Positions 1 through 14,607 of a stretch of DNA of 60,716 nucleotides are shown here, in pieces. Location: positions 1 through 60,716 of the forward strand of contig NZ_OBQD01000025.1 of the NCBI RefSeq assembly GCF_900220975.1, written 5' to 3'. A program made the position numbers and the translations under genes. Position 1 is the stretch's first letter; every line of letters begins with the position of its first letter. The notes under the pieces are model-generated. The model was not told where the DNA came from. It saw only the letters and a list, made by a program, of their open reading frames with translations, and did not search any database. This stretch comes from Rhizobium subbaraonis (GTDB lineage Bacteria; Pseudomonadota; Alphaproteobacteria; Rhizobiales; Rhizobiaceae).

Positions 1-200
1 GAGGACATTGACCGAACCAAAGCTGACTCGCCGGGTCGCCACTTGGGCGTAGCGTCCAAGCTCAGCGACATCAGGATGAGTTTCTGCACAGCCTGCCCCG
101 CAACGCCCCCTGAGAGTGAGAGTGCGGACGGGTTTGCCGGTAGAGTAGGGATGAAGCGCCTTACCTCGTCACCGAGGCAGGTTTCTTCATCCCCCGCTCC

Positions 201-234: not shown

Positions 235-264
235 TCCATGCGTGGCATGTGCCACGGGTGGCCC

Positions 265-1791
265 TCATAATGTTTCGAGGGCGCGGGTTGCTTCCCAGAA
301 TTTGTCAGCTCCCTTCAGGAAGCGCTCATCCGGGTCGTCCCATCCGTTCGGTATGCGTAGGCCTCGGTCCGGGTATCGCAGGCGTTTGGTGTCGGCGAAC
401 CGGGCGAGTTTCTTCGCGCCCGATTGCCAACCGCCGTCTTTCCCGGTTCCCGGCACGGTATATATACGACGCAATGTCCTTCCAGACGCCTTGCCGTGTT
501 TCTTGCCGAGCCAGGATTTCAGGCGCCAGTACAGCCACCAGTCGAGCTTGCCGAACTCCTTCCCTGATCGTGTAGCGTATCGGTAGTAGTTTCGCCAGCC
601 GACGATGACCGGGTTGAGGTTATCAACTAGTGCGGCAAGGGTGACGCCAGTTGGCGTTTCCCGCACTCGGGCCTTGATCTTGTCGCGGAGGAACTGTGGC
701 TTGCCCTTCGGAATGAAGAGCATGCCGACATACCGTCCTGTGGATGGCATCTTTTCCTGCGCAACCCGGTAGCCGAGAAAGTCAAAGCCTTCCCGGACAT
801 CGGTGATCTTGGTCTTCTCCATCGATAACTCCATGCGCAATTCCTCTTTCAGGAACTGCGCCAGCGCCAGACGCTCGTCTTCGGCATCCTTCTGAGTTCC
901 CTGCACGAGGACGACAAAGTCGTCCGCGTATCGCACCACGTAGAACCCCGGACGACCACGTTGGTAGTCGGTCTGTAGGCGCTGTCGCGCCCGCACCGGT
1001 GTTTTATCCCGTGGATTGGGAATCCAGCGCCGGTATCGCTCATCGATGGCCGTCAGGTAGACATTGGCCAAGAGCGGCGAGACGATGCCCCCTTGCGGGG
1101 TTCCGGTTACCGGATGCCGACGATTGCCCTCGATCATGATGTCGGCTTTCAGGAAAGCGAGGACGAGTCGCAGGACCTTCCGGTCCCGAATGTGTCGTCG
1201 CACCCGTTCCATCAGCACATGATGATCGATGGCGTCGAAACACCCCTTGATGTCCCCTTCAATTACAAACCGGGTCCGTGAAGGACCAGCCTTTGTCGGG
1301 TCCAGTCTGTGACGCACCTTTGCGAGTGCGTCGTGGGTGCTCCGACCGGGGCGAAAGCCGTATGAGGTCGAATAGAAATCCGCCTCGAAGATCGGCTCCA
1401 CCACCAATTTGAGCGCCATTTGGACTAGTCGGTCTTTGAGCGTGGGAATGCCTAAGGGGCGGAACTTTCCCGGTTTGCCCGGCTTCGGGATCAACCTCTG
1501 CCGGACAGGTTCAGGCCGGTAAGTTCCCTGCCGCAGGTCTTGCCGGATTTCCTCCAGAAAGCCTGCGACCCCATCGGGACGCCCTTCGACCGCCTTACGC
1601 GTCACGCCGTCCGTGCCCGGTGTGTTGCTGCCCCTGTTACGGGCCAGCCGTTGCCAGGCATGAAGCAGCGTGCCGCGGTCGCATACGATATTGAACAGAT
1701 CCGCGAACCTCCTTTCGGGGGACGCGGCACTCCACCGATACAGCTTGCGCTGCATGTCGAGAATGAACTCGGTATTCACCGTGTCGGACAT
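265..1791 (-). CDS. ltrA: Group II intron reverse transcriptase/maturase
   Basis: The protein has 508 aa. It should bind its own intron RNA, help splicing and copy the intron into DNA during homing. Visible features are the RT fingers-palm blocks (LIPKPGKPGKFRPLGIP; YGFRPGRSTHDAL; GTPQGGIVSPLLANVYL), the YADDFVVL catalytic motif, and a C-terminal thumb/maturase region with a GWRNYYRYA-type signature. No HNH-type cysteine pairs are seen at the C-terminus, so an endonuclease domain appears absent (inference). The ATG at 1791 was chosen because the protein starts there with the family-typical N-terminus and a GGAG sits 9 nt upstream. The open frame continues upstream to 1965 but that part is intron structure. 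The gene is intact. Confidence 0.93.
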   Translation of the reverse strand: MSDTVNTEFILDMQRKLYRWSAASPERRFADLFNIVCDRGTLLHAWQRLARNRGSNTPGTDGVTRKAVEGRPDGVAGFLEEIRQDLRQGTYRPEPVRQRLIPKPGKPGKFRPLGIPTLKDRLVQMALKLVVEPIFEADFYSTSYGFRPGRSTHDALAKVRHRLDPTKAGPSRTRFVIEGDIKGCFDAIDHHVLMERVRRHIRDRKVLRLVLAFLKADIMIEGNRRHPVTGTPQGGIVSPLLANVYLTAIDERYRRWIPNPRDKTPVRARQRLQTDYQRGRPGFYVVRYADDFVVLVQGTQKDAEDERLALAQFLKEELRMELSMEKTKITDVREGFDFLGYRVAQEKMPSTGRYVGMLFIPKGKPQFLRDKIKARVRETPTGVTLAALVDNLNPVIVGWRNYYRYATRSGKEFGKLDWWLYWRLKSWLGKKHGKASGRTLRRIYTVPGTGKDGGWQSGAKKLARFADTKRLRYPDRGLRIPNGWDDPDERFLKGADKFWEATRALETL

Positions 1792-2429
1792 TGACGTCCA
1801 TCTCCTGCTTGCAAAATGTATCCACTGCCCGCCTTCGCCATGTGGACGGCTTTCCCGCCCTCGGACTACTACGCGGGCTCCGCCCCCGCTGCGCGCGATC
1901 GCCGGTCGCTTCGGCCAGCCGTCCCGGAAGGACGGCAACGCGTGCGGGTTCCCAAGTTCCACCAACTGCCCCTTGTCCGCTGTAGGAGCCGACTCTACCC
2001 CGTGTGGAATCCGGCTTCCGGGCCTTGCAGGCTTTCCCGGAGGCTGACACCGGGTTGCTCCGATGTCCCTGACGCGCGCCCATCAATCGCGCGTCGGCGC
2101 TCCACAAGTCTTTCGACTGCCCCACCCACTTCCGAGTCGGTGCGGCGCCCTCTGACGGGGCTTCGGCCATCGGTTCGGTTTCCCTCTCCATGGCGGACTG
2201 GCTGGCCGGGCCGTTATCGGGATCGGAAGTTCCCTCACGCCCGGCGTTAGCGGGTTCTGCTGATTTATGGCCTTCCGGAAGCACCCGGACGGCCTCACCC
2301 GCTCGCTTCGCGCCCCACGCTGCACCGTGTGGCGGGAGGGTTTCTCACCCCTCGGGGTTGGTTGGTAGCTTTGCCTCTGTGTTAAAACTCCTTTCCTTTC
2401 AAAGAGTTAGAGGGCTGTGCTTGGCGCAC

Positions 2430-2476
2430 TGACGGGTTGAGGACTGGAGGAGAGGCCTCCGGCGCCCGTCGCGGAG
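2430..2476 (+). promoter_or_regulatory. Structured 47-nt leader, copy 1 (ardC-like gene)
   Basis: This is one of three equal-length leaders (others at 4479-4525 and 11459-11505). It begins TGACGGGTTGA and ends GCCCGTCGCGGAG. GACGGG (2431-2436) pairs with CCCGTC (2465-2470). Inside is a 5-bp hairpin GGAGG/CCTCC closing an AGAGG loop. The terminal GCGGAG acts as Shine-Dalgarno 7 nt before the ATG at 2484. The group II intron sits directly against its first base. Its upstream GAGAG-repeat tract has been displaced to positions 112-123 by the intron. Confidence 0.75.
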
Positions 2477-2483
2477 AACCGCG

Positions 2484-3446
2484 ATGTCCAGACATGACCG
2501 CACCACGCGCACCGGCCAGGACCGGGCGAACCTCTATGACGAAATCACCGGCAAGATCGTCGCCGAGCTCCAGGCTGGCCGCTTCCCATGGGTCCAGCCC
2601 TGGGGCACGTCGGCCGCGAAAGCCCCGCTCGGCCTGCCGAGGAACGCCAGCAGCGGCCGCAATTACAGCGGCATCAACATCCTGATCCTCTGGGGCGCAA
2701 TCGTTCAGCACGGCTTCCCCGGACAGGGCTGGCTCACCTATCGCCAGGCGGCGGCGCTCGGCGGCAATGTCCGCAAGGGCGAGCGCGGCACCACCGTCGT
2801 CTATGCCGACCGCTTCGTCCCCGAGGACGAGAAGCGGCGCGCCCGCGAGACCGGCGAGGACGCGCAGGCGATCCCGTTCCTCAAACGCTTCACCGTCTTC
2901 AACACGGCGCAGTGCGAGAACCTGCCCGACGACATCGCCGTCGCGGTCCCGCCGCCGCCTCCCGGCCTGATCGAGCCGAGGGTCGAGGCGCTCATCAGGG
3001 CGACCGGCATCGACTTCCGCATCGGCGGCGACCGGGCCTTCTACGTCCCGGCCGACGACTATGTGGTCGTACCTCCGCCTCAAGCCTACTTCGACCCGAT
3101 CAATTGGCACCGCACGGCCCTGCATGAGATCGGGCACGCCAGCGGCCACCACAGCCGGTTGAACCGCGATTTCTCGACCTCCTTCGGCACGAAGAAATAC
3201 GCCTTCGAGGAGTTGGTCGCGGAGATGAGCGCTGCTTTCTGCTGCGCATCGCTCGGCATCGTCCCGACCGTGCGCCACGCCGACTATATCGGTTCCTGGC
3301 TGGACGTCCTTCGCGAGGATTCCCGCGCCGTCGTCCGCGCCGCCAGCCAGGCCAGCAAGGCGGCCGACTGGATCTTGTCTTTCCTGCCGGAAGACGACGC
3401 CGGTTCGATCGCTGGCGAGCCCTCCGTCGACAGGAGGGCGGCATGA
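2484..3446 (+). CDS. ardC: ArdC-like antirestriction protein (ssDNA-binding N-terminus plus zincin)
   Basis: The protein has 320 aa. ArdC proteins protect incoming conjugative DNA from type I restriction and bind single-stranded DNA. The N-terminal domain (about residues 12-140, NLYDEITGKIVAELQAG...FPWVQPW...LTYRQAAALGGNVRKGE) is the DUF1738/ArdC-N fold. The C-terminal domain carries the metallopeptidase motif ALHEIGHASGHH (about 212-223), with a downstream E in FEELVAEMSAAF, as in the polyvalent metallopeptidase family. The start follows the leader Shine-Dalgarno GCGGAG. It is the first gene of a short run with a macro-like gene and a coiled-coil gene. The intron inserted in its promoter-side leader may cut it off from its normal promoter. 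Confidence 0.9.
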   Translation: MSRHDRTTRTGQDRANLYDEITGKIVAELQAGRFPWVQPWGTSAAKAPLGLPRNASSGRNYSGINILILWGAIVQHGFPGQGWLTYRQAAALGGNVRKGERGTTVVYADRFVPEDEKRRARETGEDAQAIPFLKRFTVFNTAQCENLPDDIAVAVPPPPPGLIEPRVEALIRATGIDFRIGGDRAFYVPADDYVVVPPPQAYFDPINWHRTALHEIGHASGHHSRLNRDFSTSFGTKKYAFEELVAEMSAAFCCASLGIVPTVRHADYIGSWLDVLREDSRAVVRAASQASKAADWILSFLPEDDAGSIAGEPSVDRRAA

Positions 3447-3697
3447 TCCTCGCGACACGCCCGCCGCGCCGACGCCTGCTTGCCGATGGTTGCCAGGGCG
3501 ATCTCGACCATGGCGCTGCCGCCGCTCACCACAACCGATACTCTTCCATCGTGCCGCCAGCCCCCGCGCAGTGCCAACGGCGTTGCCGTTCCCTCACGGG
3601 ACGCCTTTGGCCGCCCGCCTCGGTGACTCTCCGCAGATTCCTGGGGCCGCTCGGAGCCGTACCGCTCGCGGCGAGCGGAAGCAGGCAGGAGGTCTCC

Positions 3698-4090
3698 ATG
3701 CGTAGCTCGACGACCATCGAACCCGTCTTCGTTTTCGGCTCCAATCTCGCGGGTCGCCACGGCAAGGGCGCGGCCCTCTGGGCTCGCCGGCACCGTGGCG
3801 CGATCTACGGCCAGGGCGTCGGGCCGCAGGGACGCGCCTATGCGATCCCCACCAAGGATCGCGGGCTGCGCGTCCTGCCGCTGGCCGTGATCCGCGGCCA
3901 TGTCGACGACTTCCTCGGCTACGCCCGCGGCCTCGCGAATACGCGCTTCGAGGTCACGCCCATCGGCTGCGGTCTGGCGGGCTATCGCCCGGACCAGATC
4001 GCCCCGATGTTCGCTGACGCGCCGGCGAACGTCATCCTGCCGGACGCATTCCGCGCCGTGCTGGCCGCGTCGCCACGGAGGAGGCCATGA
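3698..4090 (+). CDS. Small macro-like (predicted ADP-ribose-binding-like) protein
   Basis: The protein has 130 aa. The sequence PVFVFGSNLAGRHGKGAA, then AIYGQGVGPQGRAYAIPTKD, then VTPIGCGLAGYRPDQIAPMF and NVILPD match a small phage/plasmid family. Its layout (a strand ending GSN, a glycine-rich loop, an IGCGLAGY loop) resembles macro domains that bind ADP-ribose. That is similarity of pattern, not a proven function. The ATG at 3698 has CAGGAGG 8 nt upstream. The longer frame back to 3443 has no credible start. The stop overlaps the next ATG (ATGATGA), so the two are translationally coupled. Confidence 0.75.
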   Translation: MRSSTTIEPVFVFGSNLAGRHGKGAALWARRHRGAIYGQGVGPQGRAYAIPTKDRGLRVLPLAVIRGHVDDFLGYARGLANTRFEVTPIGCGLAGYRPDQIAPMFADAPANVILPDAFRAVLAASPRRRP

Positions 4091-4428
4091 TGACGCGGGA
4101 GGCGCTGCGCGCCGCCTTGGCGCGCATGGAAGCGAGCCTCGCCGACAGCCGGCGCAATCTCGCGCTCGCCGAGAGCGCGTTGTCGCGCCGCGCCGAAACC
4201 GAGGCCATCCGTCGGCGGCCGAAGGCGCGGCATTATCACCGCCGGATGAGCCGATGGACCGGAGCCGACGAGGCCGAGTACCGCCGCATCCTCGACGGAC
4301 TGCTGGCGATCGCCGGCCCCGATCTCGACCGGCTGCGGCGCAGGATCGGCCGGCAGGACGCCGCGATCGCGGCGCTGCGCCGGAAATACGGGGTGAACGA
4401 GCCGCTGCCGTCTCCGCCTGCCTGGTGA
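4087..4428 (+). CDS. Hypothetical coiled-coil protein
   Basis: The protein has 113 aa and belongs to no family I recognise. Two strongly helical, Ala/Arg/Leu-rich segments (about 3-38 and 70-100, with heptad-like LARMEASLADSRRNLALAESAL and LDRLRRRIGRQDAAIAALRRK) flank a basic middle (RRRPKARHYHRRMSRW). It overlaps the upstream macro-like gene by 4 nt and is followed by the leader of the ParB-like gene. A nucleic-acid-associated role would fit the basic patch but is inference. Confidence 0.65.
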   Translation: MMTREALRAALARMEASLADSRRNLALAESALSRRAETEAIRRRPKARHYHRRMSRWTGADEAEYRRILDGLLAIAGPDLDRLRRRIGRQDAAIAALRRKYGVNEPLPSPPAW

Positions 4429-4478
4429 CGCGGTGCGGGCGGCGGCGTTCGAGAGTGAGAGAGGGGATGGGGATTTCG

Positions 4479-4525
4479 TGACGGGTTGATAGCGGAGAGA
4501 GAGGCTCTCGGCGCCCGTCGCGGAG
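4479..4525 (+). promoter_or_regulatory. Structured 47-nt leader, copy 2 (ParB-like gene)
   Basis: It has the same outer stem as copy 1: GACGGG (4480-4485) with CCCGTC (4514-4519). The inner hairpin is changed to GAGAG/CTCTC, still closing an AGAGG loop, so both sides changed together. A GAGAGTGAGAGAG tract lies upstream (4451-4463). GCGGAG ends 9 nt before the ATG at 4535. Confidence 0.75.
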
Positions 4526-4534
4526 TAACCCATC

Positions 4535-6688
4535 ATGGCCCGAGCCAAGAAGAAGCCCGTCCTCGAATTGATCGAGTTCTCGCGGGCGCGCGACATCCCC
4601 TTCAACCGCATTCGTCTGTCGAACGACAATGTGCGCGAAACCGACGTGGAAGCCGGTCTCGACGATCTCGCCGATGACGTCGAACGCCGCGAAGATCTGA
4701 TCCAGGGCATCAATGTCCGTGCTATTCTCGATGCTGACGGCAACGAGACCGGCGATTTCGAGACGCCCGCCGGCGGCCGCCGCTTCCGCGTGATAGCCCG
4801 CCTCGTCGAGAAAGGCCGCTTCGCCGAGGACGGCCTGATCCCCTGCATCGTGAAGAAGGCCAATGCCAAGACTTTGGCGGTCGACGACTCGCTCGCCGAA
4901 AACACGTTCCGGCTTGCCCTTCATCCGCTCGACCAGTTCAAGGCGTTCAAGCGGATGGTCGATGGCGGCATGACCAAAGCGGAGGTCGCGAGTGCTTATT
5001 TCACTACGGAGCGCTATGTCGATCAGCGCCTCGCGCTTGCCAAGGTCTCGCCCACGCTCCACCAGGTCTATGCCGAAAACGGCATGACGCTCGCGACGCT
5101 GGAGGCGTTCACCGCCCACCCGGATCACGCGCGCCAGGAGCAGGTCTGGGATGCCATCAGGCAGTCCCATTATCGCGAGCCCTGGCGCATCCGGAACATG
5201 CTGACCGAGACCAGCGTCGCCGCCTCCGACAAGCGCGCCCGCTTCGTCGGCCTCGACGCCTACGTGGCGGCGGGCGGCCCGCTCTTGCCGCGCTATCTCT
5301 TCGATGACGACGAGGAAGGCTGGCTGGACGACGTGCCGCTCCTCGATCGACTGGTCACGGAGAAGCTGAAGTCCGTCGCCGAGGAGATAGCCGCCGAGGG
5401 CTGGAAGTGGATCACGGTCGATCTCGAGCTTCCTTACGGCTACGACTACGACCTTCGCGCGATCACCCCCACCTTCGCCGAACTAACCGGTGAGGAGCGG
5501 GCCGCTCGCCAGACGCTCCGCGACGAATATGACCGGATCGAAGCCGAACATGAAGCCGACGACGAGCTGCCGGACGAAATCGATCAGCGCCTCGGCGAGA
5601 TCGAAGAGCAGCTCGAAGCCTTCGAGCGCCGCCCTGCCATCTTCGATCCCACCGACATCGCCATCGCCGGCGTCTTCGTCACCGTAGATGAGGATGGCGA
5701 ACTCGTTGTCGATCGCGGCTGGGTCCGTCCGGAGGACGAGCCGACCGCGACCGTCGAAGGCAAAACGCCGGAGATCGAGGGCGACGGGGATGCGGGCGGG
5801 GTTTCCGCGCCCGACGTCCGGCACACCGCCATCACGGTCGGCGGTCAGCCGGTCGAGTCCGACGAGGAAGAAGACACGATCAAGCCTCTTCCCGAACGTC
5901 TCGTGGCGGAGCTGACGGCGCATCGCACCGTGGCGCTGGCCGATGCGGTGGCCGCCAATCCGCACATCGCCATGACGGCGCTCCTGCATCGGCTCGTGCG
6001 TGATCGCTTCAAGCAGTCCACGAAAGGCTCAGCCGTCCGGGTTTCCGTCCAGGAGGTATATTTCCCTGAGCAGGGCATCGACCTCAAGGACAGCCCTTAT
6101 GCGAAGTCGGTCGCCGAGCGGCACGCGGGATGGAAGGCGGACGTGCCAACCGATCCCGATGCGCTGTGGGATTGGCTGGACGCGCTCGATGACGCCAGCC
6201 GCATGGCGCTACTCGCTCATTGCGTCTCGTTCGGCATCAACGCGCTCTACGAGCGGCCGAATCCGCACAGCGCGACCGGTATTTCCGAATACGACCTTCG
6301 GAACCGCATGACCGAAGCCGACCGCCTTGCACGCGCGACCGGGCTCGACATGGCGGAAGCCGGTTTCCGGCCGACCGTCACGAACTACCTCGGCCGCGTA
6401 ACCAAACCTCGCATCCTCGACGCCGTTCACGAGGCGCTTGGTGAGGAGAATGCCCGCCTGATCGACCATCTGAAAAAGGCCGACATGGCGCGGGAGGCCG
6501 AACGTCTCCTTGCCGACTCCGGTTGGCTGCCGGAACCGCTTCGCCTCCTCGTTGAGGAACCGGGCGTCGAGACCCCGGTGGATTCCGACGAGGACGACGT
6601 CGCCCTGCCGGAATTCCTCGCCGGTGACGATGACGCGGGCGCGACCGATGCGACCGACGATCCGGCGGTTCTCGTCGCCGCCGAATGA
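4535..6688 (+). CDS. Large ParB/RepB-like DNA-binding partition protein
   Basis: The protein has 717 aa. The N-terminal part has the ParB/Srx fold (IPFNRIRLSNDNVRE, then IRAILDADG...TPAGGRRFRVIARLVEKG, then LAENTFRLALHPLDQFKAFKRMVDGGMTKAEVASAYFTTERYVDQRLALAKV). This includes the ENxxR-type motif (ENTFR) that binds CTP/phosphate in ParB proteins, followed by a helix-turn-helix. The C-terminal 450 residues are acidic and long compared with a usual 300-aa ParB. Related proteins occur on alphaproteobacterial plasmids and integrative elements next to ardC. It is separate from the parA at 27625, so it may be a nucleoid-like or transcriptional ParB relative rather than the ParA partner (inference). 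Confidence 0.85.
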   Translation: MARAKKKPVLELIEFSRARDIPFNRIRLSNDNVRETDVEAGLDDLADDVERREDLIQGINVRAILDADGNETGDFETPAGGRRFRVIARLVEKGRFAEDGLIPCIVKKANAKTLAVDDSLAENTFRLALHPLDQFKAFKRMVDGGMTKAEVASAYFTTERYVDQRLALAKVSPTLHQVYAENGMTLATLEAFTAHPDHARQEQVWDAIRQSHYREPWRIRNMLTETSVAASDKRARFVGLDAYVAAGGPLLPRYLFDDDEEGWLDDVPLLDRLVTEKLKSVAEEIAAEGWKWITVDLELPYGYDYDLRAITPTFAELTGEERAARQTLRDEYDRIEAEHEADDELPDEIDQRLGEIEEQLEAFERRPAIFDPTDIAIAGVFVTVDEDGELVVDRGWVRPEDEPTATVEGKTPEIEGDGDAGGVSAPDVRHTAITVGGQPVESDEEEDTIKPLPERLVAELTAHRTVALADAVAANPHIAMTALLHRLVRDRFKQSTKGSAVRVSVQEVYFPEQGIDLKDSPYAKSVAERHAGWKADVPTDPDALWDWLDALDDASRMALLAHCVSFGINALYERPNPHSATGISEYDLRNRMTEADRLARATGLDMAEAGFRPTVTNYLGRVTKPRILDAVHEALGEENARLIDHLKKADMAREAERLLADSGWLPEPLRLLVEEPGVETPVDSDEDDVALPEFLAGDDDAGATDATDDPAVLVAAE

Positions 6689-6744
6689 TGCGCTCCAGCG
6701 GGGCGGCTTCGGTCGCCCCGATTTTCCTTCCCCTTCCACTCCAA

Positions 6745-6781
6745 GGCCCGGCATCCCGCCGGGCCGTTTTCGTTTCAGGAG
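6745..6781 (+). terminator. Hairpin-T-run-Shine-Dalgarno module, copy A
   Basis: GGCCCGG (6745-6751) pairs with CCGGGCC (6759-6765). GTTTTCGTTTCAGGAG follows, and the CAGGAG serves the ATG at 6791. It looks like an intrinsic terminator placed just before a ribosome binding site, so it could attenuate readthrough into the next gene. Copies of the same design lie at 7305 and 12770. Confidence 0.6.
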
Positions 6782-6790
6782 ACCTTGTTC

Positions 6791-7267
6791 ATGTCCGCTG
6801 CTCTCATCTTCGACGTCGCGCCGCTCGGTTCACTCGTCGCCTATTCCGACGGTACGGCCAAGCCGCCGGCTCGTTTCACCAGGAAACTCGCTGCGTGGGA
6901 ACGCCGTAACGGCGCCGGCCGCCTCGTGCGCAAGGAGCCGGCCCGCGAGCGGCCGACCTATTCGAGCCCGCCATGCTTCACGCTGCACGAAGGCGATTTC
7001 GGTGAGGGTGGCATCATCCTCGTTACGATCATGCGGACTTACGGCATCGACAGCGACCTCACTTTCCGCGTGGTCGAGCGACCGAAGGTCGGCCAGGTAC
7101 GCGTGCTGCAGCACGTCGGCGAAAACGCCGAGCTGATCCACCTCGCGCAGAACCGCGAAGCCGCTGAGCTCTGGCTGGCGAAGGCCGGATACAGCCGCGC
7201 CCGCCTCGAAGAGGTGACGGCCGACGAGATCGGCGCCGATGACGTTGAAGGTCGGGCAGCCGCCTGA
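6791..7267 (+). CDS. Conserved hypothetical backbone protein
   Basis: The protein has 158 aa and a family I do not recognise by name. It opens MSAALIFDVAPLGSLVAYSDGTAKPPARF and includes a glycine-rich segment (GEGGIILVTIMRTYGIDSDL) and a C-terminal helical acidic part. No signal peptide or catalytic motif is seen. The ATG at 6791 is preferred over a TTG six bases upstream because CAGGAG is 10 nt before it. It lies downstream of the ParB-like gene, behind the hairpin module. Confidence 0.72.
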   Translation: MSAALIFDVAPLGSLVAYSDGTAKPPARFTRKLAAWERRNGAGRLVRKEPARERPTYSSPPCFTLHEGDFGEGGIILVTIMRTYGIDSDLTFRVVERPKVGQVRVLQHVGENAELIHLAQNREAAELWLAKAGYSRARLEEVTADEIGADDVEGRAAA

Positions 7268-7304
7268 TCAGCGACGGCGAGCCAGACAGGCGATTTCATC
7301 TTTC

Positions 7305-7349
7305 GGCCCGGCTCTCCACAGGAGACCGGGCCTTTTCCTGTTTCAGGAG
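7305..7349 (+). terminator. Hairpin-T-run-Shine-Dalgarno module, copy B, now without its gene
   Basis: GGCCCGG (7305-7311) and CCGGGCC (7326-7332) flank a loop that contains its own CTCTCC/GGAGA pairing. TTTTCCTGTTTCAGGAG follows (to 7349). In the other copies the CAGGAG is followed within 7-10 nt by a start codon. Here the sequence runs instead into a decayed regulator fragment, so the original downstream gene seems to have been displaced by the cargo insertion. Confidence 0.6.
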
Positions 7350-7360
7350 GCTACCATACG

Positions 7361-7450
7361 TTCATAGGCGATGAGCCGGAGATGCTGCCCGCCATTCACG
7401 GTGAGCTAGGAGTGATCGAAATCGACGGGCTGTTACGATACCAACCGAAC
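7361..7450 (-). pseudogene. Decayed fragment of an XRE/MmyB-type regulator C-terminus
   Basis: Read on the minus strand this gives QPVDFDHS-stop-LTVNGGQHLRLIAYE. It aligns with QPVEFEHTSLTVDGGQHLRLVVYA at the end of the intact regulator at 8284-9087. A second stop lies just upstream of QPVD. It is a diverged partial second copy, not a recent duplication. It marks the left edge of the inserted regulator/hydrolase/exporter cargo. Confidence 0.75.
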
Positions 7451-7591
7451 CGATGCGCAGTGGGAGCCGGTCGCGCCGCCTATGATCCCGGACGTCTGGC
7501 CCGAAGCACCAGGCTTCCGTCCAACCCAAGGCTTGGCGAGACGGCCCAAAAACCTTCCTGGCACGGGACGAGGCGTTCGCCGCGATGTGGT

Positions 7592-8287
7592 TCAACTCGC
7601 TCCATCGGCGATTACTGCCGCAAGAAGCTCGGGATGTGTGAGCATTGCATCATGTGGCGCATCGATCTCGACATAACGCCAACCATCGGCGCGGGCGCGA
7701 AATGCCGATCGCTCCAGAAGAGCGCCAGGGGCCTGCGTGCAACGGATATAGGTCCTGTCTGGAACCGAGAGCGGCGGCAGGCGGATCGGCTCGAAATAGG
7801 TTCCGACCGGCTGCGCCGTGAGCCGTTCATCGACCCATGCACGGTCCGCATCGGCAACGCCGAAATTGACCGATGGTAACGGCGGAATATGCCAGTTCTC
7901 ATCGCGCGATGCATGGGCCGTGTAGGCCTCGATCAGGTGCGGCGCGTGGTCGAGGAGTTTTTCGCCATCTTGCGGCAGGAAGGCGTCGAGCAGAACGAGA
8001 TGGGATACGAGATCGCCAAGCCGGGCGGCGGCGGCTGTTGCCGGGAAACCACCATAGCTATGTCCCACCATCGTGATGGCTTTCCAGCCGGAAGCTCGAA
8101 CATGGGCGATGACGTCCTCGATATGGGCGGACAGATCGATCTGCCGGGACAAGAGATCGGCGCGTTCGGCAAGGCCGGACAAGGTGAGCGCGCCGGCATC
8201 GTGCCCCGCCGCGCGGAGGTGATCGATCACCCGCTGCCAGCACCAGGCGCCATGCCATGCACCATGAATAAGGACGAAGGCAGTCAC
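7592..8287 (-). CDS. Alpha/beta hydrolase (plant-esterase-like)
   Basis: The protein has 231 aa. It is a serine hydrolase with HGAWHGAWCW near the N-terminus (oxyanion region), the nucleophile elbow GHSYGG (about 78-83) and a C-terminal catalytic His in DAPHDAML, and is the size of small esterases. The substrate is unknown. The GTG at 8287 was chosen because GGAGG lies 8 nt upstream and it overlaps the stop of the upstream regulator gene by 4 nt (GTGA), which indicates coupled translation. It is probably an accessory enzyme of the adjacent exporter/regulator cargo, for example acting on an ester compound that the regulator senses (inference). Confidence 0.88.
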   Translation of the reverse strand: MTAFVLIHGAWHGAWCWQRVIDHLRAAGHDAGALTLSGLAERADLLSRQIDLSAHIEDVIAHVRASGWKAITMVGHSYGGFPATAAAARLGDLVSHLVLLDAFLPQDGEKLLDHAPHLIEAYTAHASRDENWHIPPLPSVNFGVADADRAWVDERLTAQPVGTYFEPIRLPPLSVPDRTYIRCTQAPGALLERSAFRARADGWRYVEIDAPHDAMLTHPELLAAVIADGAS

Positions 8288-9087
8288 GATGCGTCCTCCG
8301 ACCCATCGACCCGCGCATAGACGACGAGCCGCAGATGCTGCCCGCCGTCGACGGTGAGCGAGGTGTGCTCGAACTCCACAGGCTGTCCCTCCACCCTGAT
8401 CGTGAGTGTTCCCGTGCAGGGCGCATGAACGTCCTGATCGCGCCACCAGCCCTTGAACTCAGGCGAAGCCGCTTCCAGCTCCGCGATCAGTCCCTTGGCG
8501 TCAGCGTCATCGCGCGCGGCCGCGAAATCGCGGCGGAAGCTGGCGAGCATGGCCGGGGCCTGTGTTTCCCAATTGACGAAGGCATCGCGCAAGGCCGGAT
8601 CCGTGAACAGCAGCCAAAGGAGATTGCAGCGCCCGGAGACGTGTCGGCCGAAGCCGAACAGGCAGTCGGCGGATGGGTTGAAGGTCAACACGTCCCATCG
8701 CAGGTTGATGATGTAGGCTGCATGAGGCGCAAGATCGTCCACCAGCCTGCCAGCCAGTGAGGGCACGGTGCAGAAGGTCTTGCCGGGCTCCGCTGGCGGG
8801 CGCTCGTGGGCAAGCAGGAACAGGTGTCGCCGCTCAGCCGCATCGAGCTTTAGAACGCGGGCGAGATTGTCGAGGAAGTCGGCGGACACGCCGATCTCGC
8901 GCCCCTGTTCGAGCCATGTATACCAGGTGACGCCGACGCCTGCGAGCGCCGCCACCTCCTCGCGCCGCAGCCCCGGCGTGCGCCTGCGCCTGCCGCCGGG
9001 CAGACCGGCATCTTCCGGCGTCAGCCGCTCCCGGCGGGTTCGCAGGAACCCCGCCAGTTCGGATCGGGTGCGGTCAAGTGCGCGCAT
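8284..9087 (-). CDS. XRE-family transcriptional regulator with MmyB-like ligand domain
   Basis: The protein has 267 aa. The N-terminal helix-turn-helix (about 10-85, LAGFLRTRRERLTPEDAGLP...RRTPGLRREEVAALAGVGVTWYTWLEQGR) is the hallmark of this actinobacterial/proteobacterial regulator group. The C-terminal half (about 105-260) is the MmyB-like ligand-binding domain with VLTFNPSADCLF and SLTVDGGQHLRL. It is divergent from the MFS exporter at 9185, with a 97-bp gap that holds two GTAAC repeats. It likely controls that gene and its own hydrolase operon. A decayed relative of its 3' end lies at 7361-7450. Confidence 0.9.
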   Translation of the reverse strand: MRALDRTRSELAGFLRTRRERLTPEDAGLPGGRRRRTPGLRREEVAALAGVGVTWYTWLEQGREIGVSADFLDNLARVLKLDAAERRHLFLLAHERPPAEPGKTFCTVPSLAGRLVDDLAPHAAYIINLRWDVLTFNPSADCLFGFGRHVSGRCNLLWLLFTDPALRDAFVNWETQAPAMLASFRRDFAAARDDADAKGLIAELEAASPEFKGWWRDQDVHAPCTGTLTIRVEGQPVEFEHTSLTVDGGQHLRLVVYARVDGSEDAS

Positions 9088-9184
9088 GGCTTAGCCTATG
9101 ACAGAAAGTAACAGCATAAGAGGGTAAATTGTAACCGAATGAAGTTCATGGAATCCCTACTGCGTCATTACCAGAGGACGCAAG

Positions 9185-10654
9185 ATGAATTCCGACGCCT
9201 GCACAGCCGAACCGCTTTCTTCCGTATCTGCTGAGACCACCCGACGGCCGCCATGGCTCGGTTTGTCGATCCTGCTGCTTGCGGGGTTCGTGACGATCTT
9301 CGACCTCTTCGTGGTCAATGTCGCCATTCCATCCATGCAGGCAGAGCTTGGAGCGAGCCTGTCGCAGATCGGTTTCATCGTCGCGGGTTACGAGCTGGCC
9401 TTCGGCGTCCTTCTCGTCACGGGCGGAAGACTTGGCGATCTTTACGGACGACGGCGGCTGTTCATGGTCGGCATGGCGGGTTTCGCCTTGGCGTCGTTCC
9501 TCTGCGGGATTGCACCGACCGTCGAGGTGCTGATCGGTGCGCGGGTAGCGCAGGGGCTGGCGGCGGCTCTGCTCTTCCCGCAGGTCTATGCCTCGATCCG
9601 CGTGAACTTCTCCGGCGACGACAGCCGCCGCGCCTTCGGCTTCTTCGGCATGACGCTCGGCCTTGCCGCCATCGCCGGGCAGATCGTCGGCGGGTTTCTC
9701 GTAGAAGCGAACATCCTCGATCTCGGCTGGCGCACCATCTTCCTCATCAACGTGCCCATCGGGGCCATTGCAATGCTGATGGCACGCTTCATCCCCGAAA
9801 CGATTTCCCCCGACCGCCCGGCGCTAGACTGGCCGGGCGTGGCGCTGGTCAGCCTCGGTCTGACGCTCTTGCTCGTGCCGCTGATCGAAGCCCCGAGCTA
9901 TGGCTGGTCGCTCTGGAGCTTTCCCGCGCTCGCCGCGGCCGCCATCCTGCTTGTCGCCTTCTATCGTCATCAGGAATGCCGCCGCAAAGCCGGCCACCAG
10001 CCGCTGGTGGACATGGCGCTGATGCGCCAGCCGCGCTTCGCGCAAGGCGGTCTTTTGGTGCTGCTGATTTATTCGACGGCTTCCTCCTTCTTTCTCTGCT
10101 TCGCGCTTCTGGTGCAGACCGGCTTCGGTCTCAGCCCATTCGAGGCCGGCAGCGTCTTTGTCCCGTGCTCCATCGCATTCGTAATCCTCTCACTCAGCGC
10201 ACCGCGCCTCGTCGCGCGCTTCGGAACACCCGCGATCGCCGCAGGGGCGCTGGTCTATGCAGTCTCGTTCGGCGTGCTTATCGGCCAGGTCTGGATCACC
10301 GGGGCCGATCTCGTCGTCGCGCATCTCATCCCGGCACTGATCGTCATCGGCGGAGCGCAGGCAATGATAATGACGCCGCTGCTCAATCTCGTGCTCGGCT
10401 TTGTGGAGGAGCAGCAGGCCGGCATGGCGTCAGGCGTCATCTCGACTCTCCAGCAGGTTGGCGCGGCGCTGGGCGTGGCCGCTGTCGGCATCCTCTTCGG
10501 CATAGGGCTAGAGACGGGATCGGACGGACAAGCCGCGCTCTACGCTTCGGCCTTCGTCTCGGCCATGAGCTACAACGTCGCCGCGGCCATCATCGCCGCC
10601 GTTCTGCTGTTGCGCCTCGCAGTCCACGGACGCCAGACAAATCTGGCCTCATAA
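9185..10654 (+). CDS. MFS drug/solute exporter, 14-TM DHA2 type
   Basis: The protein has 489 aa and about 14 hydrophobic segments. It is an inner-membrane proton-driven efflux carrier. The MFS motif A-like loop GGRLGDLYGRRRLFMVG and the motif C-like region (GLAAIAGQIVGGFLVE) are visible. The length fits the EmrB/QacA-like DHA2 group. The ATG at 9185 follows AGAGGACGCAAG. It is divergently transcribed from the XRE/MmyB regulator, which suggests ligand-induced efflux. The substrate cannot be inferred. Its 3' end is followed directly by a hairpin. Confidence 0.92.
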   Translation: MNSDACTAEPLSSVSAETTRRPPWLGLSILLLAGFVTIFDLFVVNVAIPSMQAELGASLSQIGFIVAGYELAFGVLLVTGGRLGDLYGRRRLFMVGMAGFALASFLCGIAPTVEVLIGARVAQGLAAALLFPQVYASIRVNFSGDDSRRAFGFFGMTLGLAAIAGQIVGGFLVEANILDLGWRTIFLINVPIGAIAMLMARFIPETISPDRPALDWPGVALVSLGLTLLLVPLIEAPSYGWSLWSFPALAAAAILLVAFYRHQECRRKAGHQPLVDMALMRQPRFAQGGLLVLLIYSTASSFFLCFALLVQTGFGLSPFEAGSVFVPCSIAFVILSLSAPRLVARFGTPAIAAGALVYAVSFGVLIGQVWITGADLVVAHLIPALIVIGGAQAMIMTPLLNLVLGFVEEQQAGMASGVISTLQQVGAALGVAAVGILFGIGLETGSDGQAALYASAFVSAMSYNVAAAIIAAVLLLRLAVHGRQTNLAS

Positions 10655-10674
10655 TCTGACGATGCGCCGTCAGA
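10655..10674 (+). terminator. Hairpin after the MFS gene
   Basis: TCTGACG (10655-10661) and CGTCAGA (10668-10674) form a perfect 7-bp stem directly after the stop codon. There is no clear T-run, so terminator activity is uncertain. Confidence 0.45.
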
Positions 10675-11041
10675 CGGAAACCACATCGGGCCGACGATGT
10701 GCAGGCGTTCATGCTGATCGCACAGGAATATTGCGCCTGTAGGGGCCGGATCGAAATAATAGCGTCCTTGGCCGGAGACGACACACCAGCGGCCAATCTC
10801 GCGTTCGACACTCCGGCGCCATCGACCACGCGGATGGCTGGCAACGGTGCAGCGGCGGCCCGGAACATTCGTCCTTCCCTGGATCAGCATGGCGACAAGG
10901 CTGACGGGCGGTGCATCTCGCACAGAGGCTGGCGGCTCCCGTCACCGGCAAGACACCACCCCCGCTTCCATTCGCTAACCTTGGTCCGATCCGGGTCTTG
11001 TTCAATCAACCCGTGAAGGGTCGGCTTACGCAAGCGTGCCG
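10675..11041. other. Intergenic remnant region, no confident gene
   Basis: There is no convincing coding sequence. A minus-strand open frame (start 10923) reads IGRWCVVSGQGRYYFDP and GAIFLCDQHERLHIVGP but then runs antisense through the exporter gene. It may be a fragment of a lost gene. The stretch probably contains the right edge of the cargo insertion, because backbone-type structure resumes at 11042. Confidence 0.4.
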
Positions 11042-11078
11042 CCCTCGGGGATTCGGAAAGAGTCCGAACGCCCGAGGG
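11042..11078 (+). promoter_or_regulatory. Long two-part hairpin before a small-protein gene
   Basis: CCCTCGGG (11042-11049) pairs with CCCGAGGG (11071-11078), and inside it TTCGGA pairs with TCCGAA around an AAGAG loop. No T-run follows. It lies 83 nt before the ATG at 11161. It could be a transcript-stabilising stem or an attenuator. Confidence 0.5.
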
Positions 11079-11160
11079 TGATTGCAGCCCCGGTCAGACA
11101 CTTCGGGCGCCTGTCGCGCGGGGGACGGTCCCCCGCCTCCACAGACAGGAGCCGAAACCC

Positions 11161-11325
11161 ATGTCCTACGCAGACGCCACCGCCTTCGCCACCAGCCTCG
11201 CCGCCACCCTGATGGTCTCGATCGTCGTGTTCCAGGCCGGGGACGGCACCCACGGCGCCGCACCGGCCGGCGAGTTCGACGGCGACGAAGACATGATCGA
11301 ACTCGAAATCGACCCTTGGCAATGA
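11161..11325 (+). CDS. Small hydrophobic-segment protein
   Basis: The protein has 54 aa. Residues 7-26 (AFATSLAATLMVSIVVFQAG) form a plausible single membrane span or signal anchor. The tail is acidic and ends MIELEIDPWQ. ACAGGAG lies 9 nt before the ATG. The stop overlaps a following ATG (ATGA). Codon use is backbone-like with strong third-position GC. The function is unknown. Confidence 0.6.
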   Translation: MSYADATAFATSLAATLMVSIVVFQAGDGTHGAAPAGEFDGDEDMIELEIDPWQ

Positions 11326-11516
11326 GGCGCTTGCGCCTCAACGACTGCCCGGATCGCCAGCGCGACCGGGCCTTCCATCATGCGGCGGCAGACCGCCGCA
11401 AGCATCGGCGCCGGGCCATCGCCCCGGCAGGAGAGGAAGAGGTCGGGCCGGTTGGCCGTGACGGGTTGAAAGGTGGAGGAGAGGCTTCCGCCGCCCGTCG
11501 CGGAGTGATCCGATGA
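11322..11516 (+). CDS. Possible small basic protein overlapping a leader element
   Basis: The protein has 64 aa, is rich in Arg and starts MRRLRLNDCPDRQRDRAFHHAA. It is ATGA-coupled to the small membrane protein upstream. Its 3' half runs through the conserved leader at 11459-11505 and its stop overlaps the next gene's ATG, so the coding claim competes with the RNA element. It is plausible but weak. Confidence 0.35.
   Translation: MRRLRLNDCPDRQRDRAFHHAAADRRKHRRRAIAPAGEEEVGPVGRDGLKGGGEASAARRGVIR
11459..11505 (+). promoter_or_regulatory. Structured 47-nt leader, copy 3
   Basis: Outer stem GACGGG (11460-11465) with CCCGTC (11494-11499). The inner hairpin GGAGG/CTTCC closes an AGAGG loop, with a G-U wobble replacing the G-C pair of copy 1. 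GCGGAG (11500-11505) ends 7 nt before the ATG at 11513. A GAGAGGAAGAGG tract lies upstream at about 11431-11442. Confidence 0.75.
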
Positions 11517-12166
11517 CCCGTTCCCACCCTGAAACCTTCCGCTCGATCGGACAGGTTCTCGCCGGCCATGTGCTTCCCCGCCTTGAGCATGCGCAAAAGC
11601 GCCCGCTGCGCGTCTCCTGCCTTGGCACGATCAGCTATGACGGCGCCACCGAGGCCGATTGCGTGGACCGCAGCATCCCGATCGGCGAGGCCGCTTCGCC
11701 GCAGGACGCCATGGCGCTTGCGGCCACCCGCGTCGCGCGCGGCGACATCCGCGCCATGCCCGACGACACGCTGCGCTTCCGGCCGAGGCTCATCGTCGTG
11801 CAGGACAGCGCGTCCGGCCTGGTCCTCGCCGGTGAAATCCGCGCGGGCGTCATCCTCTGGCAGCAGCCCGTCGCCAGCAAGGCCGAAGCCACCCGGATCG
11901 TGCTCGATGCCACCCGCCTGCGCGGCAGGGCCTTCGCCGCCACCGGCCGGGGCGATCACGCCGCGGCCCGCGACCTCCGGTTCCAGGCCGCCCGGCTCGA
12001 AGCGCGACTGGTCGATCCCGTCTGGCGCGAGATCGCCGCCGAACTCCGGCTGCCCGAGGCGGCGTGCCCCCGCTTTCCCCAACCAACCTTTCCGGCCCGG
12101 CCATGCGCCGCGCGCCGATCCTATGGAGTTTCCCATGCCCAGATATGTCGTCAGCAAAGGCCATGA
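11513..12166 (+). CDS. Conserved hypothetical backbone protein
   Basis: The protein has 217 aa. No recognised domain is seen. The N-terminal part contains RPLRVSCLGTISYDGATEADCVDRSIPIGEA, and the middle contains a helical AAATRVARGD and a strand-rich RLIVVQDSASGLVLAGEIRAGVILW. It is controlled by the structured leader, with its GCGGAG as Shine-Dalgarno. Its last 30 codons overlap the start of the next gene, so the true C-terminus may be decayed or extended. The final residues look low in conservation value (PARPCAARRSYG). The role is unknown, and the shared leader suggests co-regulation with ArdC and the ParB-like protein. Confidence 0.68.
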   Translation: MTRSHPETFRSIGQVLAGHVLPRLEHAQKRPLRVSCLGTISYDGATEADCVDRSIPIGEAASPQDAMALAATRVARGDIRAMPDDTLRFRPRLIVVQDSASGLVLAGEIRAGVILWQQPVASKAEATRIVLDATRLRGRAFAATGRGDHAAARDLRFQAARLEARLVDPVWREIAAELRLPEAACPRFPQPTFPARPCAARRSYGVSHAQICRQQRP

Positions 12167-12536
12167 CGCCTTCGCCTACTACGAAACCGTGGTCGAGGCC
12201 GACACACCCGAACAGGCGCGACGCCTTGCCACCAGCCACAACTATGACGGCGAATGGCTCGCCACCGGCTATGTGCAGGAGTTCGACGACTACGAAATCG
12301 ACGAGCACAGCGGCGTGCGCCTGCTCGAACCGCGCGAGACCATCGAAGCGTTTCAAACCATCACCGTGACGGCCCGCGAGCGCGACGCCGTGCTCGCCGG
12401 TCTTTCCACCCTTCAGCTTGCTCTTATCAATGGGCCGCTCGATCCGGTGTTCATGGACGACCTCACCAACAACGGCGCGCACGCCGGCCTCGAACTTCAC
12501 GAGATCGACGAGCTGCGCCGACGCTTCAAGGTCTAG
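12135..12536 (+). CDS. Conserved hypothetical protein
   Basis: The protein has 133 aa and is acidic, opening MPRYVVSKGHDAFAYYETVVEADTPEQARRLA. It has a helical middle and the ending HEIDELRRRFKV. ATGGAG lies upstream of the ATG at 12135. It starts within the end of the preceding gene. The first 40 residues look like a small strand-helix fold that converts position-wise values in phage/plasmid proteins, but no function can be assigned. Confidence 0.68.
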   Translation: MPRYVVSKGHDAFAYYETVVEADTPEQARRLATSHNYDGEWLATGYVQEFDDYEIDEHSGVRLLEPRETIEAFQTITVTARERDAVLAGLSTLQLALINGPLDPVFMDDLTNNGAHAGLELHEIDELRRRFKV

Positions 12537-12545
12537 GAGGCGCCG

Positions 12546-12740
12546 GTGTACGCGACCTATCTCCGTCTCGACATTCTGGTCTGGGACAGCGACCGCGCCG
12601 TCATCCGGGCGGCGCGTCGCAAGCTGTCCCGCTCAGCCTGGAACGAGCCCCACAAGCGGGAGGCGCGAAAGCGCTTCTATCGCGAGATGCTAGGCCACCA
12701 CGCCGAGGCTCAGCGACTTGTGGCGCACTTCCGCCTCTGA
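12546..12740 (+). CDS. Small basic hypothetical protein
   Basis: The protein has 64 aa and starts with GTG after a strong TAGGAGG (8 nt). The sequence (YLRLDILVWDSDRAVIRAARRKLSRSAW...RKRFYREMLGHHAEAQRLVAHF) is mostly helical and basic. It follows the previous stop by 9 nt, so it is probably co-transcribed. Small proteins of this kind are common in alphaproteobacterial conjugative elements. The function is unknown. Confidence 0.62.
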   Translation: MYATYLRLDILVWDSDRAVIRAARRKLSRSAWNEPHKREARKRFYREMLGHHAEAQRLVAHFRL

Positions 12741-12769
12741 CCACGACACCACCGTATCCATCGACCATC

Positions 12770-12806
12770 GCCCGGCCGTCGCGCCGGGCTTTCTCATTTT
12801 CAGGAG
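12770..12806 (+). terminator. Hairpin-T-run-Shine-Dalgarno module, copy C
   Basis: GCCCGGC (12770-12776) pairs with GCCGGGC (12783-12789). TTTCTCATTTTCAGGAG follows. CAGGAG lies 6 nt before the ATG at 12813. The design is that of 6745 and 7305. The TTTCTCATTTTC tail recurs after ssb at 23974. Confidence 0.6.
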
Positions 12807-12812
12807 CCCGAC

Positions 12813-13229
12813 ATGGCCGACCACTTCACCCATTTCTCATGCCTGCTGGACGTCGGCACACCCGACAATGCCGCCCGCGCGCTTGCGCTCTACAATCAGC
12901 TTTCCGAAGACGGCGCATCCGAAGATCCGCCCTCGGACGGCTTCCTCTTGTCAATCCAGCCCGAGCACGGTGGCAGCAAGCTCTGGATGCGCGACGACGT
13001 CACCGGCGATCCGGAACGCCTCCTTCAGTTCGTCAGGATCTGCGCCGCGGAGTTTGGCCTGAAAGGCCGCTGGGGCTTCCATTACGCCAACTCCTGCTCG
13101 CAGCCGCGTGTCGACGCCTTCGGCGGCGGCGCGCATGTAGTCGACCTCACCACCGGCAAGACGATCGCATGGACCTACACCGATGGCTGGCTTGCGCGGG
13201 TCCTCGGCGGAGGCGATCCCGATGAGTAA
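12813..13229 (+). CDS. Conserved hypothetical protein
   Basis: The protein has 138 aa and opens MADHFTHFSCLLDVGTPDNAARALALYNQL. It contains GRWGFHYANSCSQPRVDAFGGGAHVVDLTTG and is acidic overall. I do recall similar proteins beside the following gene in rhizobial mobile elements, without a tested function. It overlaps the next gene by 8 nt, so the pair is probably translated together. The hairpin module immediately upstream may set its level. Confidence 0.7.
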   Translation: MADHFTHFSCLLDVGTPDNAARALALYNQLSEDGASEDPPSDGFLLSIQPEHGGSKLWMRDDVTGDPERLLQFVRICAAEFGLKGRWGFHYANSCSQPRVDAFGGGAHVVDLTTGKTIAWTYTDGWLARVLGGGDPDE

Positions 13230-13866
13230 GGTGATCGAGACGAAGGTCTATCAGCTTGCCGAGCTATCCGACGCCGCCAGGGAGAACGCGCGAGCATGGT
13301 ATCGAGAGGGCGGCTTCGACTATGATTGGTACGCTACCATCTTCGATGATTTCGAGCAGATTTGCGAAATCCTCGGCGTTCGCCTTAAAGCCCGCGCCGT
13401 CCGGCTGATGGGCGGCGGAACCCGGCAGCAGCCACGCATCTACTTCACCGGCTTCTGGTCGCAAGGGGACGGCGCCTGCTTCGAGGCGTTCTATTCTTAC
13501 CGGAAGAACGCCTCGCGCGACATCCGGGGCCATGCCCCGAAGGACGACCGCCTGCATGCCATCGCCGACGGTTTGCAGACCGTCCAGCGACGGAATTTCT
13601 ATCAGCTCCACGCTGATGTCAGCCACCGTGGCCACTACTATCACGCCTATTGCATGGCGATCTCCGTCGAGCGGGACAGTCCGACCTGGCAGGGCATGAC
13701 CGCCGATGCCGGGGAGATCGTGACCGAGGCGCTGCGCGATCTCGCTGACTGGCTCTACCGGCAGCTCGAACGCGAATACGAATACCTGACCTCGGATGAG
13801 TCCGTCGAGGAAACCATCATCGCGAACGAATATACCTTCACCGAAGCCGGCCGTCGCTTCGGCTGA
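13222..13866 (+). CDS. Conserved hypothetical protein (sometimes labelled antitoxin-like)
   Basis: The protein has 214 aa. The sequence begins MSKVIETKVYQLAELSDAARENARAWYREGGFDYDWY, followed by IYFTGFWSQGDGACF and a C-terminal helical LADWLYRQLEREYEYLTSDESVEE. Relatives in Rhizobiales are, as I remember, often named antitoxin of a stability system. Nothing here supports that: no adjacent toxin is visible and there is no DNA-binding motif. The ATG at 13222 lies inside the upstream gene's end, with GGAGG 8 nt before it. A strong hairpin follows the stop. Confidence 0.72.
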   Translation: MSKVIETKVYQLAELSDAARENARAWYREGGFDYDWYATIFDDFEQICEILGVRLKARAVRLMGGGTRQQPRIYFTGFWSQGDGACFEAFYSYRKNASRDIRGHAPKDDRLHAIADGLQTVQRRNFYQLHADVSHRGHYYHAYCMAISVERDSPTWQGMTADAGEIVTEALRDLADWLYRQLEREYEYLTSDESVEETIIANEYTFTEAGRRFG

Positions 13867-13873
13867 TGCTATC

Positions 13874-13902
13874 GAGCGTCCCGTCTCCAAGCCGGGACGC
13901 TC
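13874..13902 (+). terminator. Strong hairpin at the operon end
   Basis: GAGCGTCCCG (13874-13883) and CGGGACGCTC (13893-13902) form a perfect 10-bp stem with a 9-nt loop, 7 nt after the stop codon. There is no T-run. Confidence 0.55.
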
Positions 13903-13947
13903 CTGCCATCGTCGCGTTGGCTCGCCTGGCGGGTCGTTGGGGCCGCG

Positions 13948-14346
13948 CTACCACTCACCCTTACCCTCATCCACCGCGTATTCGAAGCGCAGCGCCCACG
14001 GCCGGATCGCCAGATCGTCATCCGTCCGCGTCACGCGCAGGCGCGATATCCCCGGAACGCGCGTCGGCGCCGCGCCGAAAACGACGGGGATCGTATAGAA
14101 CTCTCGCGCCTGACGGTTCTGGTAGCGGGCTTCCGCTTTGATGATGACGGAAGGCGCAATGTCCCAGATTTCTGACAGCGCCGCGAGAACGGCGGCAACC
14201 GCGATGACACAGCCCCGGACTGCGATCGAGATCGACCAATGCTCCGGCCCGAAATCCGGCAAACTTGAAGCGATTATCGAAGCGGCGAACGCGAGGATGA
14301 CAAGCCAATAGAACCTTGGCGCTCGCGGGAGAAGTGACTTGGTCAC
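13948..14346 (-). CDS. Small two-TM membrane protein
   Basis: The protein has 132 aa. Two hydrophobic spans (about 11-30, FYWLVILAFAASIIASSL; about 40-62, AVRGCVIAVAAVLAALSEIW) are followed by a soluble domain (about 65-132) rich in strands. It is the only minus-strand gene in this backbone block, convergent with the preceding operon. The family is not recognised. The start ATG at 14346 follows GGGAATAAGCTCGTG, a weak ribosome site. Confidence 0.65.
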   Translation of the reverse strand: MTKSLLPRAPRFYWLVILAFAASIIASSLPDFGPEHWSISIAVRGCVIAVAAVLAALSEIWDIAPSVIIKAEARYQNRQAREFYTIPVVFGAAPTRVPGISRLRVTRTDDDLAIRPWALRFEYAVDEGKGEW

Positions 14347-14531
14347 GAGCTTATTCCCTCCAATATAGCGGGCTCGCTTTTCGACCTGCGAAGTCGAATT
14401 CGCCCGATATCCGTTCCTCTAAACAATAGATCAAAGCCGTCGCCACCACGAGGTGACGGCCGGAAACCGCCGGCGGCGATCGGTGGTCTTCGGCGACGTG
14501 CCTTTTGCGACGAGAGCGAGAGTGGGGCCGG

Positions 14532-14598
14532 GACGGGTTTGAGCCGTTGCGGTCGAGAGAGAGCGCTGCGCGGCTCGATCCTGTCCGCTCTCCCGAGG
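14532..14598 (+). promoter_or_regulatory. Longer variant of the structured leader (helicase gene)
   Basis: GACGGG (14532-14537) pairs with CCTGTC (14580-14585), with one G-U. Inside, GAGCCG (14541-14546) pairs with CGGCTC (14571-14576) and encloses a GAGAGAGAG stretch. A GAGAGCGAGAG tract precedes it (about 14514-14524). CGAGG at 14594-14598 is the Shine-Dalgarno for the ATG at 14608. It has the same architecture as the 47-nt leaders but is longer and diverged. Confidence 0.55.
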
Positions 14599-14607
14599 TT
14601 CCCCATC

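Follow-up and report, generated by a model that had tools for sequence, protein, structure and literature searches.

The DNA analysed here, referred to as the window, is a 60,716-nt stretch of contig NZ_OBQD01000025.1 from Rhizobium subbaraonis, in which a structured leader recurs immediately upstream of several genes of a putative conjugative element. Three leaders of one type, termed class I, lie on the forward strand and precede an ArdC-like gene (leader 2430–2476; gene 2484–3446, with ArdcN and MPTase-PolyVal domains), a ParB-like gene (leader 4474–4525; gene 4535–6688, with an HTH_ParB match marginally over the Pfam cut-off) and a third gene without a Pfam match (leader 11459–11505; gene 11513–12166), residues 76–176 of which are similar to plasmid proteins annotated as RadC. 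On the same strand, a class II leader (14513–14607) precedes a gene for a strawberry-notch-type helicase (14608–18966; AAA_34 and Helicase_C_4). The original prediction, made from the sequence alone, had described 47-nt leaders at 2430–2476, 4479–4525 and 11459–11505, and these are present letter for letter with the ends that were claimed. Their co-changing inner arms (GGAGG/CCTCC, GAGAG/CTCTC and GGAGG/CTTCC, with one G-U pair), their AGAGG loop and the position of GCGGAG 7, 9 and 7 nt 5' of the ATG were likewise as described, and the longer variant at 14532–14598 is also present. The pattern GACGGGTTNAN9GAGAG, allowing up to 2 mismatches, has three matches in the window, all of them leaders, and none of 100 shuffles reached three.

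Class I leaders share the layout 5'-P0-GACGGG-bulge-P2-AGAGG-P2'-G-CCCGUC-GCGGAG, followed by 6 to 8 nt and the AUG, where GACGGG and CCCGUC form the outer stem (P1), the bulge is about 6 nt (UUGAGG), P2 is the inner stem and GCGGAG is the Shine-Dalgarno (SD) sequence. The inner hairpin exists as predicted, with a stem of up to 8 bp rather than 5 bp. Two parts had been missed: P0, formed by bases 5' of the outer stem that are complementary to the SD, and an upstream AGAG box, AGAGNNAGAG. In the leader of the ParB-like gene the P0 5' strand lies at 4474–4479, P1 at 4480–4485/4514–4519, P2 at 4492–4499/4505–4512, the loop at 4500–4504 and the SD at 4520–4525. The AGAG boxes AGAGTGAGAG (4452–4461) and AGAGGAAGAG (11432–11441) are on the forward strand, each 17 nt 5' of TGACGGG, while the ArdC leader has been severed by a group II intron from its upstream half (113–139, forward strand; box at 113–122 plus spacer) and has lost its P0 5' strand. 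RNA folding z-scores from box to ATG were -2.35, -5.50 and -3.99 for the class I leaders of the window; its class II leader scored -1.78. An intrinsic terminator or attenuator was ruled out, as no T-run lies 3' of the hairpin.

The same leader was found 5' of ArdC-like, ParB-like and other such genes in plasmids of Shinella, Indioceanicola, Aminobacter, Mesorhizobium, Methylosinus, Ketogulonicigenium, Ancylobacter and Sphingobium, and a leader-pattern scan of genome contigs returned at least 120 stretches. Among the matches listed, 78 of 80 titles are from what we take to be alphaproteobacterial groups, the other two being unresolved. A covariance model (R1) was built from an alignment of 38 leaders (A1), consisting of 34 of 36 dereplicated leaders, the three window copies and one leader from locus L010; L035 was excluded as a likely chance match without a box, and L001 was replaced by the window. 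At a threshold of E ≤0.01, R1 found 15 matches on five contigs of the window's own genome (E <1e-11) and positive genomes in 41 of 199 from the same order, in 31 of 385 drawn from the same class (with E above 1e-4 in four) and in 35 of 398 from a phylum-wide draw, where 34 belonged to the same class and one was a marginal outsider (E=0.007). The covariance-model search that had been proposed thus places members widely in the alphaproteobacteria. Two IMG/VR viral contigs (L295 and L296) also match the leader pattern.

Searches with Rfam 15 at the gathering score over the whole window returned a group II intron as the sole match and left the leader hairpins unmatched, and no match covered any hairpin when positions 1–22000 were searched to E=10. 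A sub-threshold Rfam match to M23 (E 0.041) terminates at 11436, within the third AGAG box. The leader-bearing loci L011, L013 and L083 likewise had no Rfam 15 match, and searches of the open-access literature listed nothing that describes the leader, as judged from titles and the openings of abstracts.

In A1, 96.0% of cells were paired, and both the percentage paired and the covariation score exceeded those of 500 of 500 shuffles and of all slid versions; R1 matches are biased towards the structure of the model, to which A1 was not fitted. Before counting, 57 of 411 rows scoring about 26 bits or less were removed from alignments A2–A4, with A2 restricted to the 150 best of 161 matches; in one leader set the search pattern predetermined P1 and AGAGGC. 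Among 308 unique leaders (188 at 90%), double changes in P1 comprised A-U to G-C in 6 leaders and, at two further pairs, G-C to A-U in 9 and 10. Covariation was tested against a tree-based null on 163 sequences with complete flanks, a 5-nt loop and no gap, using 200 simulations and two null variants. Three inner-stem pairs covary, namely P2.2 and P2.5 (restricted-set E ≤0.0003) and P2.7 (0.0003 and 0.0065 in the two variants), and two outer-stem pairs, P1.5 and P1.6, do so weakly (0.016–0.056), in agreement with the covariation originally claimed; P2.7 would fail the rate-weighted null in a test of all column pairs (E 0.375). Nine of the best 14 of 1275 column pairs were predicted pairs. A run that included out-of-register upstream columns (spacers of 16, 17 and 18) gave pairs judged false, and these columns were then omitted. 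That the leaders form a real structured RNA family is nearly certain from these sequence comparisons, and recent duplication is insufficient to explain them, because homologous genes in several orders carry leaders with divergent, compensating stems.

Wobble pairs indicate which strand folds. P2 pairs of A1 include G-U and, save at one pair, nearly no A-C, and across 188 leaders G-T outnumbered A-C by 198 to 52 cells (28 to 11 in P1, 170 to 41 in P2), being ahead at 10 of 14 pairs, with A-C ahead at three (P1.2, P2.1 and P2.5) and one tie. Since wobble cells favour G-T over A-C, the alignments establish the mRNA strand as the folding strand. When folded as DNA, the minus strand performed worse (z of -0.96, -1.49 and +0.72, versus -1.97, -2.53 and -1.92).

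An ATG open reading frame was assigned to 334 of 357 matches, with the ATG 6–8 nt 3' of the leader in 323 of the 334. By gene, and without dereplication so that overlapping loci are included, these comprised 156 ParB-like, 86 ArdC, 49 DUF932, 25 RadC-like and 18 other genes, one of the latter being DUF2958; the DUF932 label reflects a Pfam match under the cut-off and the RadC label a plasmid annotation. The claim that several genes share the leader therefore holds, and a more accurate listing of the set is ArdC-like, ArdB-type, ParB-like, DUF932, RadC-like, DUF2958 and strawberry-notch genes. At locus L049 (1270–4176), a single leader precedes one gene of 969 aa in which the ArdC domains (ArdcN, MPTase-PolyVal) are fused to ParB_N.

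P0 was assessed in 184 of 188 dereplicated leaders, and in 161 of the 184 four or more of the six possible pairs with the SD are kept; 82.9% of P0 cells were paired in register versus 37.8–63.7% in slid versions. SD exposure was computed for 145 nonredundant leaders out of 288. The median exposure of GGAG was 0.13 in a long RNA, 0.14 with the 5' end at -6, 0.46 at -4 and 0.38 in a short RNA that starts after GACGG, and the overall effect stems from the ParB-like (0.05 long, 0.38 short) and ArdC (0.25 and 0.50) genes. P0 draws its support from register and computed folding and none from covariation, and this support does not extend to every gene class. Just 5' of the ATG in ArdC leaders, CGCGGAGANCCGCG may form a second small hairpin with part of the SD as an alternative to P0.

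The AGAG box lies 16, 17 or 18 nt 5' of TGACGGG in 46, 107 and 19 leaders respectively (172 of 184 in total), a spacing that resembles that of a promoter, and the arrangement may carry promoter activity and a transcription start site. In the window's own genome, the box followed by N16–18 and TGACGG has 11 matches, all 11 at leaders, and N20–25 gives none; in 25 other genomes the element with N15–19 has 71 matches, of which 63 fall at R1 matches when the lists are compared by eye. Of 30 contexts of the RadC-like and class II kinds, 8 have a terminator-like site 17–37 nt 5' of the box (against shuffled means of 0.2 and 0.2), which leaves little room for another promoter and supports initiation at or near the box. 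Pairing of the AGAG box with the P2 3' arm was ruled out, as the arm varies while the box is constant. Further conserved hairpins, shared by distant taxa, lie about 40–110 nt 5' of TGACGGG in many ArdC and DUF932 leaders; the run includes GGGGAAAGCCTTCCCC, then GGCCGAGCC...GTCTCGGCC, and others.

The model that best accommodates this anatomy, which we favour tentatively and would put somewhat short of probable, is a cis-acting leader hairpin that silences read-through RNA and contains an embedded promoter. In RNA entering from upstream, UUUCCGU-GACGGG (P0 and P1) would pair with CCCGUC-GCGGAG and hide the SD, so that translation would be poor. The gene's own transcript would start from AGAGNNAGAG-N16–18-TGACGGG, as a -35/-10-like element, immediately downstream of the P1 5' arm; of the structure it would keep no more than the P2 hairpin and AGAGG loop, leaving the SD freer. 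Antirestriction and other early genes of the conjugative element would in this way be expressed from their own promoter and remain quiet under read-through, which may amount to early expression after transfer. A bolder extension, which we regard as possible though doubtful, is that AGAGNNAGAG-N16–18-TGACGGG represents a promoter class not yet described, belonging to conjugative elements of alphaproteobacteria and joined to a hairpin that silences read-through RNA; the two together would mark out a regulon of early anti-defence genes, which a sigma-like factor or RNA polymerase partner would read.

A precedent for such an arrangement is the I-TevI gene of phage T4, where early and middle read-through RNA hides the ribosome binding site and the late promoter is placed so that late RNA cannot form the hairpin (PMC2988022). 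Common to both systems is a hairpin that covers the SD and whose 5' arm lies within or close to a promoter-like element, and here too the long RNA would be closed and the short one open. By sequence and computed folding the long RNA does pair over the SD here, and SD exposure falls once P0 is included, overall but not in RadC-like genes. The two are non-homologous, and the present leader differs in forming one conserved family with covarying stems before many genes, with a promoter that is putative.

Several points weigh against the read-through model. No P0 covariation was detected against the tree-based null in the 163 sequences, as the SD hardly varies. The computed exposure of the short RNA (0.38) does not exceed that of an RNA whose upstream part was shuffled (0.42), and the change in exposure between long and short RNA is small for DUF932 genes (0.24 and 0.30) and reversed for RadC-like genes (0.34 and 0.26). 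Terminator-like sites precede the box in only 1 of 129 contexts of the other three classes. To our knowledge, the -10-like TGACGG matches no sigma consensus. Box elements without a hairpin were in no excess, with 8 matches versus about 14 expected from N20–30 (31 over 11 spacings), and promoter function therefore has no independent support from such copies.

Among the alternatives, a switch acting in trans comes closest to the original prediction, which had proposed trans-acting or self-regulated translational control. Here a protein encoded by the element, or else a small RNA, would bind the AGAG box and AGAGG loop in the transcript and open or lock the SD hairpins of many members together. 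Of 111 dereplicated leaders that came from the model and not from the pattern, 81 have AGAGG or AGAGT as their loop, while P2 varies, though the model itself favours this loop; the conserved box repeats the AGAG motif, and an SD hidden by default would suit an opener. An RNA site would not, however, require a fixed spacing of 16–18 nt, and the few neighbouring proteins scanned, none of which was recognised as a regulator, matched families of unknown function or nothing significantly. We consider this switch rather unlikely. What stands of the earlier interpretation is a structured, covarying leader set against the SD and common to several genes, and a read-through-silencing hairpin with an embedded promoter appears to fit that anatomy at least as well as trans or self-regulation.

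A plainer cis hairpin, in which P0, P1 and P2 fix translation at a constant level or determine mRNA stability, while the box is part of an upstream element (standby site or operator) with no role in read-through, would account for P2 being the best-supported part, since P2 would also stabilise the 5' end, and for the weak or absent SD effect in two gene classes. Against it, pairing of P0 with the SD is seen in register but in none of the slid controls, and the P0 strand is mostly pyrimidine opposite the G bases of the SD; we judge this reading improbable. A single-stranded DNA promoter of the Frpo/ssi kind, in which a hairpin in the transferred strand starts transcription before complementary-strand synthesis, also has points in its favour: Frpo precedes the leading genes of F (PMC9849209), such elements are widespread in leading regions (PMC11541004), and the leaders described here likewise place a hairpin before genes of the early antirestriction kind, in a common orientation towards the relaxase side. 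The relaxase of the window lies at 31584–33458, and as relaxases are typically in the lagging region (PMC11541004), the gene set would be the leading region and the minus strand probably the transferred one, although oriT was not located; the main text of that paper makes no mention of ArdC, DUF932 or DUF2958. Frpo/ssi elements fold in the transferred strand and rebuild a canonical -35/-10 pair (PMC9849209, PMC11541004), whereas the present hairpin is a GC-rich fold of the mRNA strand that directly adjoins the SD. With wobble pairs favouring the plus strand, the minus strand folding worse as DNA, P1 being GACGGG/CCCGTC and no TATAAT-like or TTGACA-like pair in the leaders inspected, this reading is very unlikely.

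The leader family offers a way in, at the level of sequence, to how conjugative elements other than those of enterobacteria may time the antirestriction genes that aid transfer. With the covariance model, members can be found straight from sequence, and genes that are probably early are picked out, several of them of unknown function. In IS10 and IS50, translation of the transposase is inhibited by fold-back of RNA arising from the end repeats of the element. The likeness to these elements is an SD of a mobile-element gene hidden in read-through RNA; the difference is that the structure here is a dedicated leader repeated before several genes.

The second leader class had also been missed as such. 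Class II leaders (29 aligned) precede the strawberry-notch gene of the window, a giant helicase gene, genes annotated likewise in L008, L011 and L013, an ArdB-type gene (PF03230) in L172 of the window's own genome, and other genes. In the window, the class II leader has its AGAG box at 14513–14522, followed by nested stems, a GAGAGAGAGCG loop and CGCTCTC 5' of the SD. Class II leaders carry the AGAG box, with TGA at an offset of 15–18 in 19 of 29, a tally of 30 rows minus the class I leader L095 from which a text filter omitted the true members L252 and L117 (L252 is also missing from one further tally). GAGAGCG opposite CGCTCTC forms standard pairs in 27–29 of 29 rows, in which the box and GCTCTC were preset by the search pattern. 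RNAalifold recovered only the GAGAGCG/CGCTCTC pairing, and not the nested stems.

The group II intron lies antisense within the ArdC leader (140–2429, minus strand) and was identified by RF00029 at 140–236, by RVT_1 and GIIM domains, and by comparing its ends with two related introns; relatives of the intron lie in Shinella and Bradyrhizobium plasmids, and its reverse transcriptase/maturase open reading frame spans 265–1965. This split had gone unnoticed, and the leader at 2430, correct to the letter in the original prediction, represents the 3' part alone, since the intron occupies 140–2429 and the upstream half lies at 113–139. Joining the flanks in order restores the usual ArdC leader. Insertion downstream of stem-loops occurs in some bacterial group II introns, and here the insertion point, read on the minus strand, is immediately after the hairpin. 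The intron end (2403–2412) happens to hold AGAGTTAGAG exactly 17 nt before TGACGGG, recreating a box; the two related introns differ there, and the chance of AGAGTTAGAG at that spacing is roughly 4e-5.

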